Below are positions 3,455 to 64,000 of a stretch of DNA of 64,000 nucleotides, piece after piece. The notes beneath the pieces were generated by a model. The model was not told the origin of the DNA, ran no database searches, and saw only the letters and a list, made by a program, of their open reading frames with translations. Source of the DNA: Emcibacteraceae bacterium (GTDB lineage: Bacteria > Pseudomonadota > Alphaproteobacteria > Sphingomonadales > Emcibacteraceae); contig JANQJN010000078.1 of assembly GCA_028281625.1 (NCBI GenBank), forward strand, positions 41,770-105,769. Reading direction: 5' to 3'. The position numbers and the translations under genes are program-made. Position 1 is the stretch's first letter. Each line of letters starts with the position of its first letter.

Positions 3455-3507
3455 CGTCAATTAGCTAAAAACCGCAGCGATAAACATTACTTTTGGGACG
3501 TTTGGGC

Positions 3508-3622
3508 GAAGAGGAGATTAGTTCGAATTCACTACGTGCCACCATCCATTCTCCTGCTAACCATGGTGTTTTTATCTCTATATGCTTAGTGCCTAAGTAT
3601 CAATGGGACAGGGCGTATACTT
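3508..3622 (+). repeat. Dispersed intergenic repeat, copy A (partner 27024-27143)
   Basis: Shares GAAGAGGAGAYTRGTTCGAAYTC, TCTCCTGCTAACCATRGTGTTTTTAT and GGGACAGRGCRTAYAYT with 27024-27143. Confidence 0.75.
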
Positions 3623-16475: not shown

Positions 16476-16861
16476 ACTATCATAGTACTAAAATAGATTG
16501 TTTCAGCAAGCAGAAGGTAGAGTGTCAAGTGCGGTAAGTTATTTGTGTATCAGTGAAACGGGAAATTTATGTACTAATTATCGAGTTAACATGTTGTGTT
16601 AAAACATCGTTTAAAAACATCATATTTGCTTATAGTATTAATAAGAACATCTTATTTTGAATTTTATTATTTCATCTATCCAACCAACACGACTTCCCCA
16701 AGACTAACTCTATTAAATAGTAATAAATATAATGTCGCAGTTTTTTAAAGTTGTACTGCTAGATTAGGATATATTTTCTTGCAAGTGGTAGTGAGGTCCA
16801 CCTCAGAGCGTTGCTTTGTTCATTACATCACAAAACCTTATTAAAATTATTGTAAATCGGT

Positions 16862-16996
16862 GGCTTTGTAAGCTTTATGGCTTTTGATCTACAGGCTCAA
16901 ATGGGAGTAGTAGTTTTGGTTAACGGCACAAGATATTTTAGTGATTTAGCCTTAAAAATTTTAGATCCTACCTATCCACTTCGGGATGTTAAGTAA
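16862..16996 (+). pseudogene. 3' fragment of a serine hydrolase gene, duplicate of the end of 56467-57552
   Basis: Encodes GFVSFMAFDLQAQMGVVVLVNGTRYFSDLALKILDPTYPLRDVK*, 41 of 44 residues identical to the C-terminus of the intact gene; no upstream coding region. Confidence 0.9.
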
Positions 16997-17275
16997 GGGA
17001 GCCTATCTTGCCGCTTTGGGTCGATAGCAATCATTTAGAGATTGCCTGTTATTGTCTTCTTGCGTGATCAAATTCCCAATGGGTAAGTTTGTATTCCCTG
17101 TTCTTGAGTCAGGGAAAAATTATGTAGAAAGACAGATTTTATGGGCTTTTTGACGCGAAAGAATGAATAACTGGATCAGATTCTTGCAAATTCCCTGTAT
17201 TTTAGGGAATTATGTCAGAGACGGGTTAGCCGTAGACTGCCCACACCACCACTCCCTTCTAAGTTTTATCATTAA
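16997..17275 (+). repeat. Noncoding part of segmental duplication (partner 57553-57710), with 107-bp indel
   Basis: GCTTTGGGTCGATAGCAATCATTTAGAGATTGCCTGTTATTGTCTT and AAATTCCCTGTATTTTAGGGAATT...AGAGACGGGTT shared with 57553-57710. Confidence 0.88.
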
Positions 17276-20861: not shown

Positions 20862-22658
20862 ATGCATATGGATAAGTTTAAGTTCATTTTTAGAATCTCG
20901 GGTCGATTATCAGTTGGCATAGCATTTCTAATTTCGATGATGATTATAATTTCTGGAATAGGATTGTTTTATTTGTCTGCGCTCAATCAACGTGTTGAAG
21001 AGATGTATTACGAAGATTTGGTTCCGATAGAGGATCTGGATAACATAAAGTCTGCTCTCTACAGTATTCGCGGAGATGTAGTGGAACATATTCTCGCTGA
21101 TGATCCGGAAGAAAAACTAGATCATGAAAAACTGATAAGAGAAAACGAAAAAATAATTCAGAACCTCCTTTCTTCTTTTCAATCGGACCGCTCAATGGGC
21201 GAAAAAGGTGAATTATTAATTCAATTTGATAAGCATCTTTCTCAGTACCTTGCGATCCTGGAAGAGGATGTACTTCCTCTCAGTGGTTCTGGTGATCCAG
21301 TTTCTGTCACGGAGGCGGAAAGAATAGCACTGGGTGCGGCCTTGAGCTCTTTCCATCAGGCGCAAAATTCAATGACTGATCTTATGAATTATTCCGTCAC
21401 TCGTGCGGAGGAACATATTAAACATTCAGAGGCTGATTATCAGTCAGCAAAGTGGAAGCTTATCATTTTTGGTGGTTTAATGGTGTTGGTAGGATGCACT
21501 GAAGGTTTTTTGACCGCACGCAGTATTATCAATCCAATTAAATCCATTACAGATGCTATGTATAAGCTTTCTCAAGGTGAAATGGATACACCAGTTCCTG
21601 CCCTTACGCGCAAAGATGAGGTGGGAGAAATGGCTAAAGCGCTTGAGTTATTTAAAAATAGCCTTATCCAAATGGATAAAATGAGGGCAGAGCAAGCGGA
21701 CCTGGAGAAAAAGTCAGCTGATCAACTACAAAAATCCGCCGATGAAAGAGAAGCAAATCGTTTACGGGAAGAAGAACGAGCGACAAAAGAAAAACTGGAA
21801 GCAGAGCGGCGTGCAGAGAAAATTGAACATCTTTTGGCGGGTTTTAATGCAAAAGTTACGAAAGTAATCCAATTAGTGGATGATGCAGCTAACGAGATGG
21901 AAGAAACAGCACAGTCTATGGCAGAAGTCGCGCAGTCAGCAAGTAGTAAAACTGAAACTTCGGTATCCGGTGCTGATCAGGCGACCTCAAATGTGCAGGT
22001 AATGGCTGCAGCAGCGGAGGAGCTATCCGCATCTGTTTTTGATATAAGTCAGCGGGTCAAGGAATCTAGTATTGCGGCAACTGATGCAGTCGCGCAGTCA
22101 GAAGAAGCAAGTAAAACGATTGGAAAACTTGAGAACGCAGCTAAAAAGATTGGCGAAGTCGTAGAGCTTATTGATGACATTGCCAGCCAAACAAATTTAC
22201 TTGCACTCAATGCGACGATAGAAGCCGCGAGAGCAGGAGAATCCGGAAAGGGGTTCGCTGTCGTTGCAGGCGAGGTCAAAAGTCTAGCCAATCAGACGGC
22301 AAATGCTACCGAAGAAATTACCAAACAGATTTCTGGGATACAGACCATCACTGAAGAGTCGGTCGAGGTGATCGAATGCATCAATCAGAAAATACATGAA
22401 ATGAGCGAAATCAGCTCGAATATCTCCACTTCTGTTGAGGAGCAATCAGTTGCAACCAACGAAGTTTCTCAAGGAGCTAATCAGGCAGCAGCAGGAACCG
22501 ATGAGATTTTACAAAACTTATCTGGTGTACAGGTAGCAATTAGAGATACGGGTGCAGCTGCTTCCCAAGTCTTGGCGGCGTCAAAATCTCTATCTACGTA
22601 CACAGTCGATTTAAAAACCGATATTGAAACATTCTTTGCGGAAATCAAAGCCATCTGA
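20862..22658 (+). CDS. Methyl-accepting chemotaxis protein
   Basis: Two TM segments, [58 protein letters not shown]. Confidence 0.94.
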
Positions 22659-26750: not shown

Positions 26751-27023
26751 AAATCGTTGAAGAACTTAAGATCATATGAAAGAACGTAAATTGTTAATGT
26801 TGAACTGGCGACCATTCTTGGTGTGAACAGTGTAGGTGCTTGTTGGATATTATGCTTTATATTTACCACTGTGTTGGTCATCAAAATAGTGATATTCAAA
26901 AAACTAACGTAACTTTGAAACGATGAGAACATCTGAAACGGGTCGTTAGCGATCATTGACCACGTTTAAATTAGTTTAGCAATGAAGCAACTATAGCTTG
27001 GGCGCTGAGATGAGATGTTGAGG

Positions 27024-27143
27024 AGAAGAGGAGACTGGTTCGAACTCTTGAAGTGTCACCGCCGTCGAATCTCCTGCTAACCATAGTGTTTTTATATCTC
27101 AATACTAAGTGTTTAAGTCTCAAGGGGACAGAGCATACATTAT
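27024..27143 (+). repeat. Dispersed intergenic repeat, copy B (partner 3508-3622)
   Basis: See copy A; near-identical blocks in the same order and orientation. Confidence 0.75.
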
Positions 27144-56466: not shown

Positions 56467-57552
56467 TTGATAAAATTCTTTTCTCTATTCATTCTAATGA
56501 TTGTCACAATTTTATCGAATTTACCAGCTGGCAATGCAAACGAGCTACCGGAAGACGTAAACCATCAAGCGCAAGTTCGCATCGATACAGGTTACCATTT
56601 AGGAACCGTGATAGGAATTATCGATAATAATGGCTCCCGATTTTACGGTTTCGGGCAAATGTCGCTAACAGATCATAAAAAACCCAATAAAAACTCAATA
56701 TTTGAGATAGGTTCTCTGACCAAACCTTTTACTACGCTTTTGTTGGCAGCATTGGAAACGGAAGGAAAAATGGACTTCAATGAACCAGTGAAGAATTATG
56801 TTCCTGCGCTAAGAAATGCTATTGGGAATAATGGTAAATCTAGTACTTTGAAAAACTTAGTTACACATACAGCTGGGCTTCCAAGAAACCCGGACAATAC
56901 TAGAAGAGATGATAGCAATCGCTTTGCAGACTATACCGTGCAAGATTTAAACGAATTTCTTTCGACCTATTCGTTTGAGGGCGGAACACCAGAGTATAGT
57001 TATTCTAATCTAGGTTTCTTAATTCTTGAGCATGCGATTGAGAATGAACTGAAGTCATCTTATGAAACACTACTTCAGGAAAAGATTTTAGATAGACTAA
57101 ACTTAAATGATACTCACTTTGATGTTCCTAATAGCAAGCGTCAAAGGCTGGTGGCAGGATTTAGAGCTGGTGAGATTACCGATGAGGTGAATTTAGGTGA
57201 GTTTCCTGCGATGGGTGGACTTAAGTCAACAGCTGAAGATATGTTGAGGTTTTTAGGCGCGCAAATTGGGTTAGTTCCTTCAAATTTGCATAAACCGATA
57301 AAACTTATTCAGTCTGAAGTGTATTCGGACGATGAAATCAGTATGAGTTTAGGTTGGGAAATATTAAAACGCGAGGAAAGCGGAAAGACAATTTACAAGT
57401 TTAGCGGAGGAACTAATGGTTTTGTCAGCTTTATGGCGTTTGACGCAGAGGCTCAAATAGGAGTTGTTGTTTTGGTCAACGGCACAAGATATTTTAGTGA
57501 TTTAGCCTTAAAAATTTTGGATCCTACCTATCCACTTCGAGATGTTAAGTAA
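56467..57552 (+). CDS. Serine hydrolase (class C beta-lactamase family), TTG start
   Basis: SLTK (SxxK), YSYSN (YxN), signal peptide. Confidence 0.88.
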   Translation: MIKFFSLFILMIVTILSNLPAGNANELPEDVNHQAQVRIDTGYHLGTVIGIIDNNGSRFYGFGQMSLTDHKKPNKNSIFEIGSLTKPFTTLLLAALETEGKMDFNEPVKNYVPALRNAIGNNGKSSTLKNLVTHTAGLPRNPDNTRRDDSNRFADYTVQDLNEFLSTYSFEGGTPEYSYSNLGFLILEHAIENELKSSYETLLQEKILDRLNLNDTHFDVPNSKRQRLVAGFRAGEITDEVNLGEFPAMGGLKSTAEDMLRFLGAQIGLVPSNLHKPIKLIQSEVYSDDEISMSLGWEILKREESGKTIYKFSGGTNGFVSFMAFDAEAQIGVVVLVNGTRYFSDLALKILDPTYPLRDVK

Positions 57553-57710
57553 GGAAGCCTATCTCGCTGCTTTGGGTCGATAGCAATCATTTAGAGATTG
57601 CCTGTTATTGTCTTTTTGCGCGATCAAATTCCCAGTAAATTCCCTGTATTTTAGGGAATTGAGCCAGAGACGGGTTAACGAGCGACTGGTAACGCCACCA
57701 TTTACCCTTC
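57553..57710 (+). repeat. Downstream part of segmental duplication (partner 16997-17275)
   Basis: Shared hairpin GCTTTGGGTCGATAGC, AATTCCCTgtattttAGGGAATT palindrome and AGAGACGGGTT box. Confidence 0.88.
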
Positions 57711-57726
57711 TTTACTGAAAATCTCA

Positions 57727-61070: not shown

Positions 61071-63992
61071 TCAATCTTGAACATCTTTGCCCGGAACACC
61101 CACAGGTGGGATGGGATTACCTTTAAGTTCGGGGATCGGTTCTTCACTGATTTTATTTTGCAAGAAATCAATCGCGGCGGATAGTTGCGCGTCAGAGCCG
61201 TTATATGTGCTATAGGGCTTGTTTTCCACTTCGATGTCGGGGGCGATACCCCATCCTTCAATGAGCCAGCGACCATCAAGGCCGAATTGTGGTGATTCAG
61301 CAACCCGCGCTATGCCGCCATCTACGAGCACATTACCACTTGAGAGCCAGATACCGGCGCCAGCGGTTCTGGTGCCAATTAGGGTTCCAAGATCCATCGC
61401 CTTGATACCGGCGGCAAAGGTTTCACCATCTGAATAGGTGCGTTCATCAATCACGACCGCAAGATGACCGCGGAAGGTTTGCTGCATGTTGCCAAACTCT
61501 TCTGAATTATCGGCAAAATACCAAAAGGCCCACACCTGCCGGAGAAGCTCACCGAGCAGGATACTATCGATATTTCCGCCGTTGTTTCCGCGCACGTCAA
61601 TGATTAGTCCATCTTTATTCACATGTTCGTAGAAATCGCGGGCGAAGCTGGAAACATCGTTACCGCCCATAGCACGCAGATGCAGATATCCAATATTATC
61701 GGATGCTGCGCTCGCAACAAATTCTCGTCTTCCTTCGACCCAGTTGCGGTAACGCATCAGGCGTTCATCTCCTTTATCCATCGCTGTCACGATGGTTTGG
61801 TGACGGCCTTCGCCTCTCCTGATATCAAGCAGTACCTGCTCCTCTGCCTGACCGAATAGTGCATTGTCCAGATCTTCAATGGAGGTTACCCGAATTCCAT
61901 TGACAGCTTCGATAATATCGCCAGTCATAACATCAACATTGGGTTTTGCGAGTGGAGTTTGATAGTTGGGAAGACCAGGCTCGCTTTTGTATATATGGTC
62001 AATTGCCAACCCGCCATCCACTGTGCTGTAAGTTGCGCCCAATGTAGCACCAGACGCTTTCTCTTCATCATCCGGTTGCTCGCCCAAGCGGACTTGTGAA
62101 TGTAAAATACCCAGTTCGCTAACCATTTGTGCGATAAGGTCGTTAAGCTCATCCCGATGTCCAATGCGAGCGACGAGTGGTTCATATTTGGTTCTTACCT
62201 GATCCCAATCAAGACCCCGCAAATTGGGATCAAACGCATAGTCCCGGTGCATGCGCCAAGCGTCTAAAAACATCTGTGGCCATTCGTCGGCCGGATTAAT
62301 GCGCAGTGACCAGTCATCCGTTCTCAGTTTCGCATCATTTAAATCTTCTGGCGCCTTTTCGCCTGCGGGCACTATATACATATTACCGTTTGCACGATTT
62401 CCTGTCGAAAAGAAGAGCTTCTTACCATCGCCTGAGAGGGCATAACTACGCACGCGCCCTGCAAATGTACTTAGTTCAGGATTGTCATTGCTAATCTTCA
62501 GGCTTTTTAAATCACTATTGCCGCCAAACTCATTTTTTATCAGGTAGAGATGCTCCTCTGTTGCTTTAAGATCATTATAGTCGCCAGCCGGTACGGGTAC
62601 TTCGTAAAGGCGATCCGTTAAGCCGTTCCAATCTATGGTTACAAGCTGTTCTTCAGGACTTTCTTCTTCGTTTTCGGCCTGCTCCTCTTCATCATCGTTC
62701 TTCATAAGCTCGTGATCAGGCGCAAAGGGAAATGTTGCAGCGTTGTTTAGGGCAAGGGCGTAGATTTTTTCCCGTTCAAGCAAAGAAGCGCCCATGTTGC
62801 GATCGCCCCAAGGATGGGATGGGCGCCCCCTGAAATTGGTCTGCGCAAGATAATATAGCCAGTTACCATCAGCAGAAAATGCAGGAGAATGTGCAACATA
62901 TTTGTTTCCGGAGATCACCACTTTTCGGCGGCTTTCGATCTCCATCAAGACTATCTGAGCAAGGCCTTCAATATTTGAACGATTATAGGCGACATAGCGG
63001 CCGTCCGGTGACCAGGTCAGCCCGGTAAAGCTTGATCCAAGTGTTCGGTCCTGATCATCAATCAGATGATTTTCACCGGTTTCAAGATCAATCATCCAGA
63101 GCCGGTCCGCTTTATCATCGTGGAACAGATATTTGCCATCTGGAGACGGAAATAGATCCCAGCGGTGCGCGGTAGCATCATTGGTAAGCCTTGTAGGCTC
63201 ACCAACACCGTTTGCGGGATAACGCCAGATTTCACCGCGCCGATCCTGGTCGATGATGACATAGACCCATTCCTCATTTGCGCCAAGTACAGCGTTTCTT
63301 GCCCGGGCATGCTTGGGAACGTCAAGCTCAACTCTGCGCAGAGGTCCGGGGCTAGCGAGCGCCACATGACCACGTGCTGTGAGTGCTACGCGATTTCCTT
63401 TTGCGGATAAAACAGCGGATGTTAAATGATTAAGCGGTTTATCAAGCCAGCGGGTGCGACGGGCATCCATATCCCCTACAAGTTTGATATCAATGGCTGC
63501 GTATTCACCTGACGCAATATCGTAAATGTGAACGTCCACTCCCATTTGGTAAGATATTTTTCCACCGTTCATGTGGGGCGTGCGAATATCCCAGCCGTCG
63601 TAGTCGGTATGCTGGCGCAGGTCATTTCCGTCTTCAGCCATTGACCATATGTTGTCTGTACCGTCCTGGTCAGTGATGAAATAAACCCGTCCATCCCACC
63701 ACATCGGATGCAGAATTGGAGCTTCAAAGTCACTGGCAAGTCGCACGGATTCATCGGTTTTTTCAAGATCAAAATACCACAGTTGTGACATACCACCACC
63801 ACGATAAAGCTTGGCATTATCCCCCACGTTGGCAAGGCCGTAGCGGGTGAAGAAAACCTCATTACCATTTGACGCAAATGTGGCCTGATTGGCGTCTGCA
63901 AGAGGAAGTTCATTTGTTGCAAGAGTTTCCGGGTTCACCGTAAAAACACGGCGCCCCTCCGGTGTGCTTCCATTCATGCTTGTGTAAATCAC
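61071..63992 (-). CDS. Tricorn-like/S41 C-terminal processing peptidase, N-terminus truncated by window end
   Basis: Beta-propeller (WD40/TolB-like) repeats, PDZ segment, DERTYSDGETFAAGIKAM S41 active site. Confidence 0.9.
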   Translation of the reverse strand: MIYTSMNGSTPEGRRVFTVNPETLATNELPLADANQATFASNGNEVFFTRYGLANVGDNAKLYRGGGMSQLWYFDLEKTDESVRLASDFEAPILHPMWWDGRVYFITDQDGTDNIWSMAEDGNDLRQHTDYDGWDIRTPHMNGGKISYQMGVDVHIYDIASGEYAAIDIKLVGDMDARRTRWLDKPLNHLTSAVLSAKGNRVALTARGHVALASPGPLRRVELDVPKHARARNAVLGANEEWVYVIIDQDRRGEIWRYPANGVGEPTRLTNDATAHRWDLFPSPDGKYLFHDDKADRLWMIDLETGENHLIDDQDRTLGSSFTGLTWSPDGRYVAYNRSNIEGLAQIVLMEIESRRKVVISGNKYVAHSPAFSADGNWLYYLAQTNFRGRPSHPWGDRNMGASLLEREKIYALALNNAATFPFAPDHELMKNDDEEEQAENEEESPEEQLVTIDWNGLTDRLYEVPVPAGDYNDLKATEEHLYLIKNEFGGNSDLKSLKISNDNPELSTFAGRVRSYALSGDGKKLFFSTGNRANGNMYIVPAGEKAPEDLNDAKLRTDDWSLRINPADEWPQMFLDAWRMHRDYAFDPNLRGLDWDQVRTKYEPLVARIGHRDELNDLIAQMVSELGILHSQVRLGEQPDDEEKASGATLGATYSTVDGGLAIDHIYKSEPGLPNYQTPLAKPNVDVMTGDIIEAVNGIRVTSIEDLDNALFGQAEEQVLLDIRRGEGRHQTIVTAMDKGDERLMRYRNWVEGRREFVASAASDNIGYLHLRAMGGNDVSSFARDFYEHVNKDGLIIDVRGNNGGNIDSILLGELLRQVWAFWYFADNSEEFGNMQQTFRGHLAVVIDERTYSDGETFAAGIKAMDLGTLIGTRTAGAGIWLSSGNVLVDGGIARVAESPQFGLDGRWLIEGWGIAPDIEVENKPYSTYNGSDAQLSAAIDFLQNKISEEPIPELKGNPIPPVGVPGKDVQD

Positions 63993-64000
63993 CTCGCCGT

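Follow-up and report, generated by a model that had tools for sequence, protein, structure and literature searches.

An orphan 3′ end of a serine hydrolase gene, 40 kb upstream of the intact gene, is in our view probably a remnant without function, left from a second, older and already diverged copy of the hydrolase 3′ region (a paralogue or an allele of a related strain) and lying beside a solo repeat linked to mobile elements; the events that would have produced it we infer from sequence comparison. Both loci lie in the window, the 64,000-nucleotide stretch of DNA analysed here (contig C110, positions 41770–105769, of the 3.9-Mb assembly G000, which is in 205 contigs). The left fragment is homologous to the intact gene and truncated, with neither start nor catalytic part, the traits by which a gene remnant is recognised. 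As a putative fossil gene end the hydrolase remnant itself matters little; the tail repeat that adjoins it is the more interesting object, offering a handle for locating where large serine recombinase elements end and which sites they target. The features of the two loci are collected in Table 1.

Table 1 Features of the left and right loci, in window coordinates. Covariance model R1 was built from 23 sequences that include both window copies of the tail, and the pattern match of the left copy is the more independent test.
Feature	Position	Strand	Evidence and remarks
Homologue of ABC transporter membrane gene 3′ end and downstream DNA, 58 bp	16815–16872	−	84% identity, E about 6e-11 genome-wide; overlaps hydrolase fragment in junction word
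Junction word in both parents, ~11 bp (TGGYTTTGTCAG)	16861–16872		Three-way alignment; ABC 3′ end GGCTTTGTCAG, hydrolase GGTTTTGTCAG
Orphan last 44 codons and stop of serine hydrolase gene	16862–16996	+	Without start or 5′ part
Stretch after stop, left copy, 82 bp	16997–17078	+	94% identical to right copy
Terminator-like hairpin inside left post-stop stretch	17027–17045		
Left tail copy, apparently full length	17068–17255	+	Core 17168–17255; R1 78.2 bits, E 5e-21; layout compared with other copies
Intact serine hydrolase gene, 361 aa	56467–57552	+	Beta-lactamase family PF00144, Pfam E 1.3e-50
Right copy of 218-bp repeat (intact gene's 3′ end and 82 bp)	57417–57634	+	BLASTN
Right tail copy, internal ~96-bp deletion	57626–57704	+	Core model match 57617–57704; R1 73.8 bits, E 1e-19

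Divergence of the two hydrolase 3′ ends

Alignment of the two segments by BLASTN gives a direct repeat of 218 bp (16861–17078 and 57417–57634) that is ungapped and 91.7% identical (E about 8e-87), bearing out the first-pass annotation where it had described the orphan 3′ end and its downstream DNA as one of two direct repeats 40 kb apart. The 44 C-terminal residues indeed differ at exactly three positions (L/A, Q/E and M/I) ahead of a common stop, and a whole-genome protein search recovers only hydrolase residues 316–361 at the left locus, confirming that the 5′ part is missing there. The further description of the same noncoding tail behind the stop needs correction: the homology as a whole falls into two unequal blocks, the second of which (17174–17260 against 57622–57711, 77.8% identity by BLASTN) belongs to a dispersed repeat family and is separated from the first by 96 bp (17079–17174) that are present in the left copy and missing from the right. 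The longest identical runs between the copies are 46 and 41 bp.

The 18 differences in the 218-bp block are divided between the 44 codons (13) and the 82 bp that follow the stop (five). By our count nine of the coding differences are synonymous and four nonsynonymous, giving a divergence of about 27% of synonymous sites, also by our count, and ten of the 13 fall at third codon positions (binomial P 0.0016). This third-position excess suggests that the divergence accumulated mostly under coding constraint; the left copy probably stayed protein-coding through much of the time since the copies separated, and its truncation came later. Judged from the alignment, the two copies stand apart at the level of gene alleles, which is not the picture of a recent copy-paste.

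A diversity-generating retroelement, with the copies as template and variable repeat, was also considered and rejected, as the substitutions lie at third codon positions and are not adenine-directed. Searches for relatives of the hydrolase returned no close homologue in the genus (best match at most 34% identity) and only distant relatives on plasmids (at most 34%, among the matches listed), while a peptide-pattern scan of GTDB genome contigs left no homologue confirmed.

Fusion with an ABC transporter gene fragment

At its left edge the hydrolase fragment is fused with a 3′-end fragment of another gene, which the first-pass annotation had missed. The 58-bp match to the parent lies on the same contig at 21526–21583 (contig coordinates), and the intact gene, encoding an ABC transporter membrane protein (ABC_membrane_3, PF13748), occupies about 21552–22478 of that contig on the minus strand. 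The short word in which the two fragments overlap occurs in both parents, and would be the scar expected if two divergently transcribed genes had undergone illegitimate recombination at a short direct repeat, with deletion of the sequence between them.

A dispersed palindromic repeat in the distal tail

The distal tail is not private to the hydrolase gene, being a palindrome-rich dispersed repeat of ~190 bp found in many Alphaproteobacteria. The family consensus consists of TTCCCTG/CAGGGAA palindromes followed by AGAGACGGGTTCGCnnnnGACTGCnnnCACCACCA, and its hallmark, the core GAGACNGGTTCGCnnnnGACTGCnnnCACCACCA preceded by TTCCCTG palindromes, is found at both window copies, of which the right is internally deleted. 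The first-pass annotation had allowed that the repeats might be only members of a genome-wide family; the tail does form a family when genomes are compared, yet in its own genome the covariance model detected exactly two copies, the two in the window, on the same strand and 40.4 kb apart. A pattern search found the core in 17 of the 301 genomes of the order, with zero matches to a reversed control pattern, and GTDB genomes yielded 110 stretches with it; the 80 of these that were listed are nearly all from Alphaproteobacteria, with Mesorhizobium, Ruegeria, Methylobacterium, Microvirga and marine Alphaproteobacteria as the main hosts. A tail of G007, from the same genus, is identical to one from an uncultured Kordiimonadaceae. 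No tail was found on plasmids, and the repeat has no match in Rfam, from which it is apparently absent; a literature search on it found nothing.

A large serine recombinase gene has its 3′ end between +212 and +373 relative to the core in eight of the 66 loci with enough sequence, at +212 to +237 in seven of these and on the opposite strand in all eight, and the Resolvase and Recombinase domains were confirmed in four. The same recombinase-tail layout is found in G011, from the same genus; at neither window copy does a recombinase gene end at this near-fixed distance beyond the core. Tails often stand solo and sometimes in same-strand groups, as in G008, with pairs 11 kb and 51 kb apart (C2, C25), and in G038, where three lie within 37 kb (C74). 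In SI054_bin61 (L157) a tail is flanked on both sides by large serine recombinase-like open frames, the two sharing one strand, an arrangement that resembles insertions stacked at a single site.

Two other identities for the tail were set aside. By eye it has no RYYYAAC/GTTRRRY pair of an integron-type attC site, and a structured RNA is disfavoured by the absence of an Rfam match and by covariation across 23 tails at only four pairs, none with both sides changed.

Putative history of the left locus and alternative explanations

The history we propose would begin with a second hydrolase copy and its downstream DNA at, or brought to, the left locus, where it diverged while still coding. Illegitimate recombination between short words (TGGYTTTGTCAG) in the 3′ coding parts of the hydrolase and the other gene would then have fused the two gene ends, with the loss of both 5′ bodies. 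On its other side the fragment abuts the solo recombinase-linked repeat, which is also found 3′ of the intact gene, and which may have acted as a homologous anchor or may have been no more than a passenger in the duplication of the gene. The ancestral arrangement, an intact ABC-like and hydrolase gene pair, was found in no relative, and the first two of these steps therefore rest on one genome. The placement of the tails speaks against this history: random solo remnants do not account for two copies just 40 kb from each other in a genome of 3.9 Mb, nor for the same-strand pairs of G008 and G038.

The order of the blocks, alike in both copies, would also follow from a single duplication that copied gene and tail together, the left 5′ part being deleted later and the tails diverging freely; we consider this unlikely. 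It would accommodate a tail divergence between left and right (about 22–31%) that is near the synonymous divergence, and a 23-bp tail segment that is identical in both. Speaking against it, identity steps down at the tail boundary, from 94% over the preceding 82 bp to ~70–78% in the tail (Fisher P 0.013), a step that could reflect either separate histories or neutral decay at the synonymous rate. In addition, the left tail is 69% identical to the right and 71.6%, 70.5% and 71.4% identical to tails of G011, G010 and a different family, respectively; as tails of other species match the window tails at least as closely as these match one another, the tail pair lends no support to a recent shared origin. 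The duplication that the first-pass annotation described is real, while a single recent event is doubtful given the allele-level divergence, the left flank derived from another gene and the dispersed distal tail. Less probable still is that the tail is an undescribed recombinase-linked element, namely one that serves large serine recombinase elements as attachment or target site, with non-autonomous solo copies, and that tends to form same-strand pairs tens of kb apart, in which case the hydrolase 3′ end adjoining both copies would be cargo-linked sequence or target sequence that the activity of such elements had duplicated.

That the repeats are attachment-site-like ends of an integrated 40-kb element, able to excise or amplify, is highly improbable, even though the genome has exactly two tails at that spacing on one strand, same-strand pairs recur in G008 and G038, and tails elsewhere are linked to large serine recombinases. 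On contig C110 neither a tyrosine integrase nor a large serine recombinase was found (zero matches to PF00589 or PF07508), and of the three tyrosine integrase matches and two large serine recombinases elsewhere in the genome, the two high-scoring tyrosine integrase matches are probably XerC/XerD. The orphan (16862) precedes the interval and the intact gene (56467), with orphan and gene both on the plus strand, whereas insertion into a gene 3′ end should give the opposite order; the copies are merely 92% and ~70% identical in the two blocks; and the intervals between tail pairs have no gene content in common above scattered paralogues. No interval-free locus, or empty site, was seen among the relatives, none of which keeps both flanks together, and the same-genus genomes differ in flanking order. 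Parts of the region are kept by relatives in other contexts, including the sulfatase gene, the 44–52.7 kb cluster (G009) and the S15 peptidase with the Rieske gene (G007). As far as tested, the 40-kb interval is ordinary chromosome and not a mobile unit. The proposal of the first-pass annotation that RecA-mediated recombination could delete or amplify it is unsupported, with no recombinase found on the contig, no interval-free locus seen in the relatives and identical runs of at most 46 bp between the copies. Runs of 46 and 41 bp at 8% divergence are a poor substrate for homologous recombination.

As for the assembly itself, it is very unlikely that a misjoin in this metagenome contig created the fragment. 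The assembly is in 205 contigs, and the end of C110 (window 63902–64000) overlaps contig C96 by 99 bp at 100% identity, as is typical of a graph assembler; from this overlap, C96 is probably the continuation of C110 in the assembly graph. However, the longest identical run between the two copies falls well below that apparent overlap of 99 bp, and copies that differ by 8% are not one locus read twice.

Comparison with known systems

The favoured reading, a diverged hydrolase copy reduced to its 3′ end, would make the left locus an ordinary gene remnant whose breakpoint is associated with a repeat. Bacterial gene remnants that arise by microhomology-mediated illegitimate recombination likewise have a truncated 3′ end with an intact homologue elsewhere, a breakpoint at a short word common to both parents and a second gene fragment fused to the first. 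The difference here is that the parent arrangement was recovered in no relative. The tail resembles elements of alphaproteobacterial large serine recombinases (Resolvase PF00239 and Recombinase PF07508) in matching the conserved noncoding DNA that lies 212–373 bp past the 3′ ends of such genes, and differs from them in that both copies are solo, with no recombinase gene beside either. An orphan, slightly diverged 3′ end and an intact gene in direct repeat also recall integrative elements that insert into the 3′ end of a gene, whereas here the orphan lies upstream of the gene, the repeats are diverged, the search of the contig yielded no integrase and no empty site was seen.

Other repeats

Two smaller observations concern other repeated sequence in the window. 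The motif CCGCTTTGGGTCGATAGCARTCATT, 3′ of the hydrolase stop (17010–17036), recurs at unrelated sites in G001 and G011 (L011 and L012, near base 1501), and may be a further small repeat. Another direct repeat, of 127 bp and 75.6% identity, pairs positions 3494–3617 with 27011–27137.
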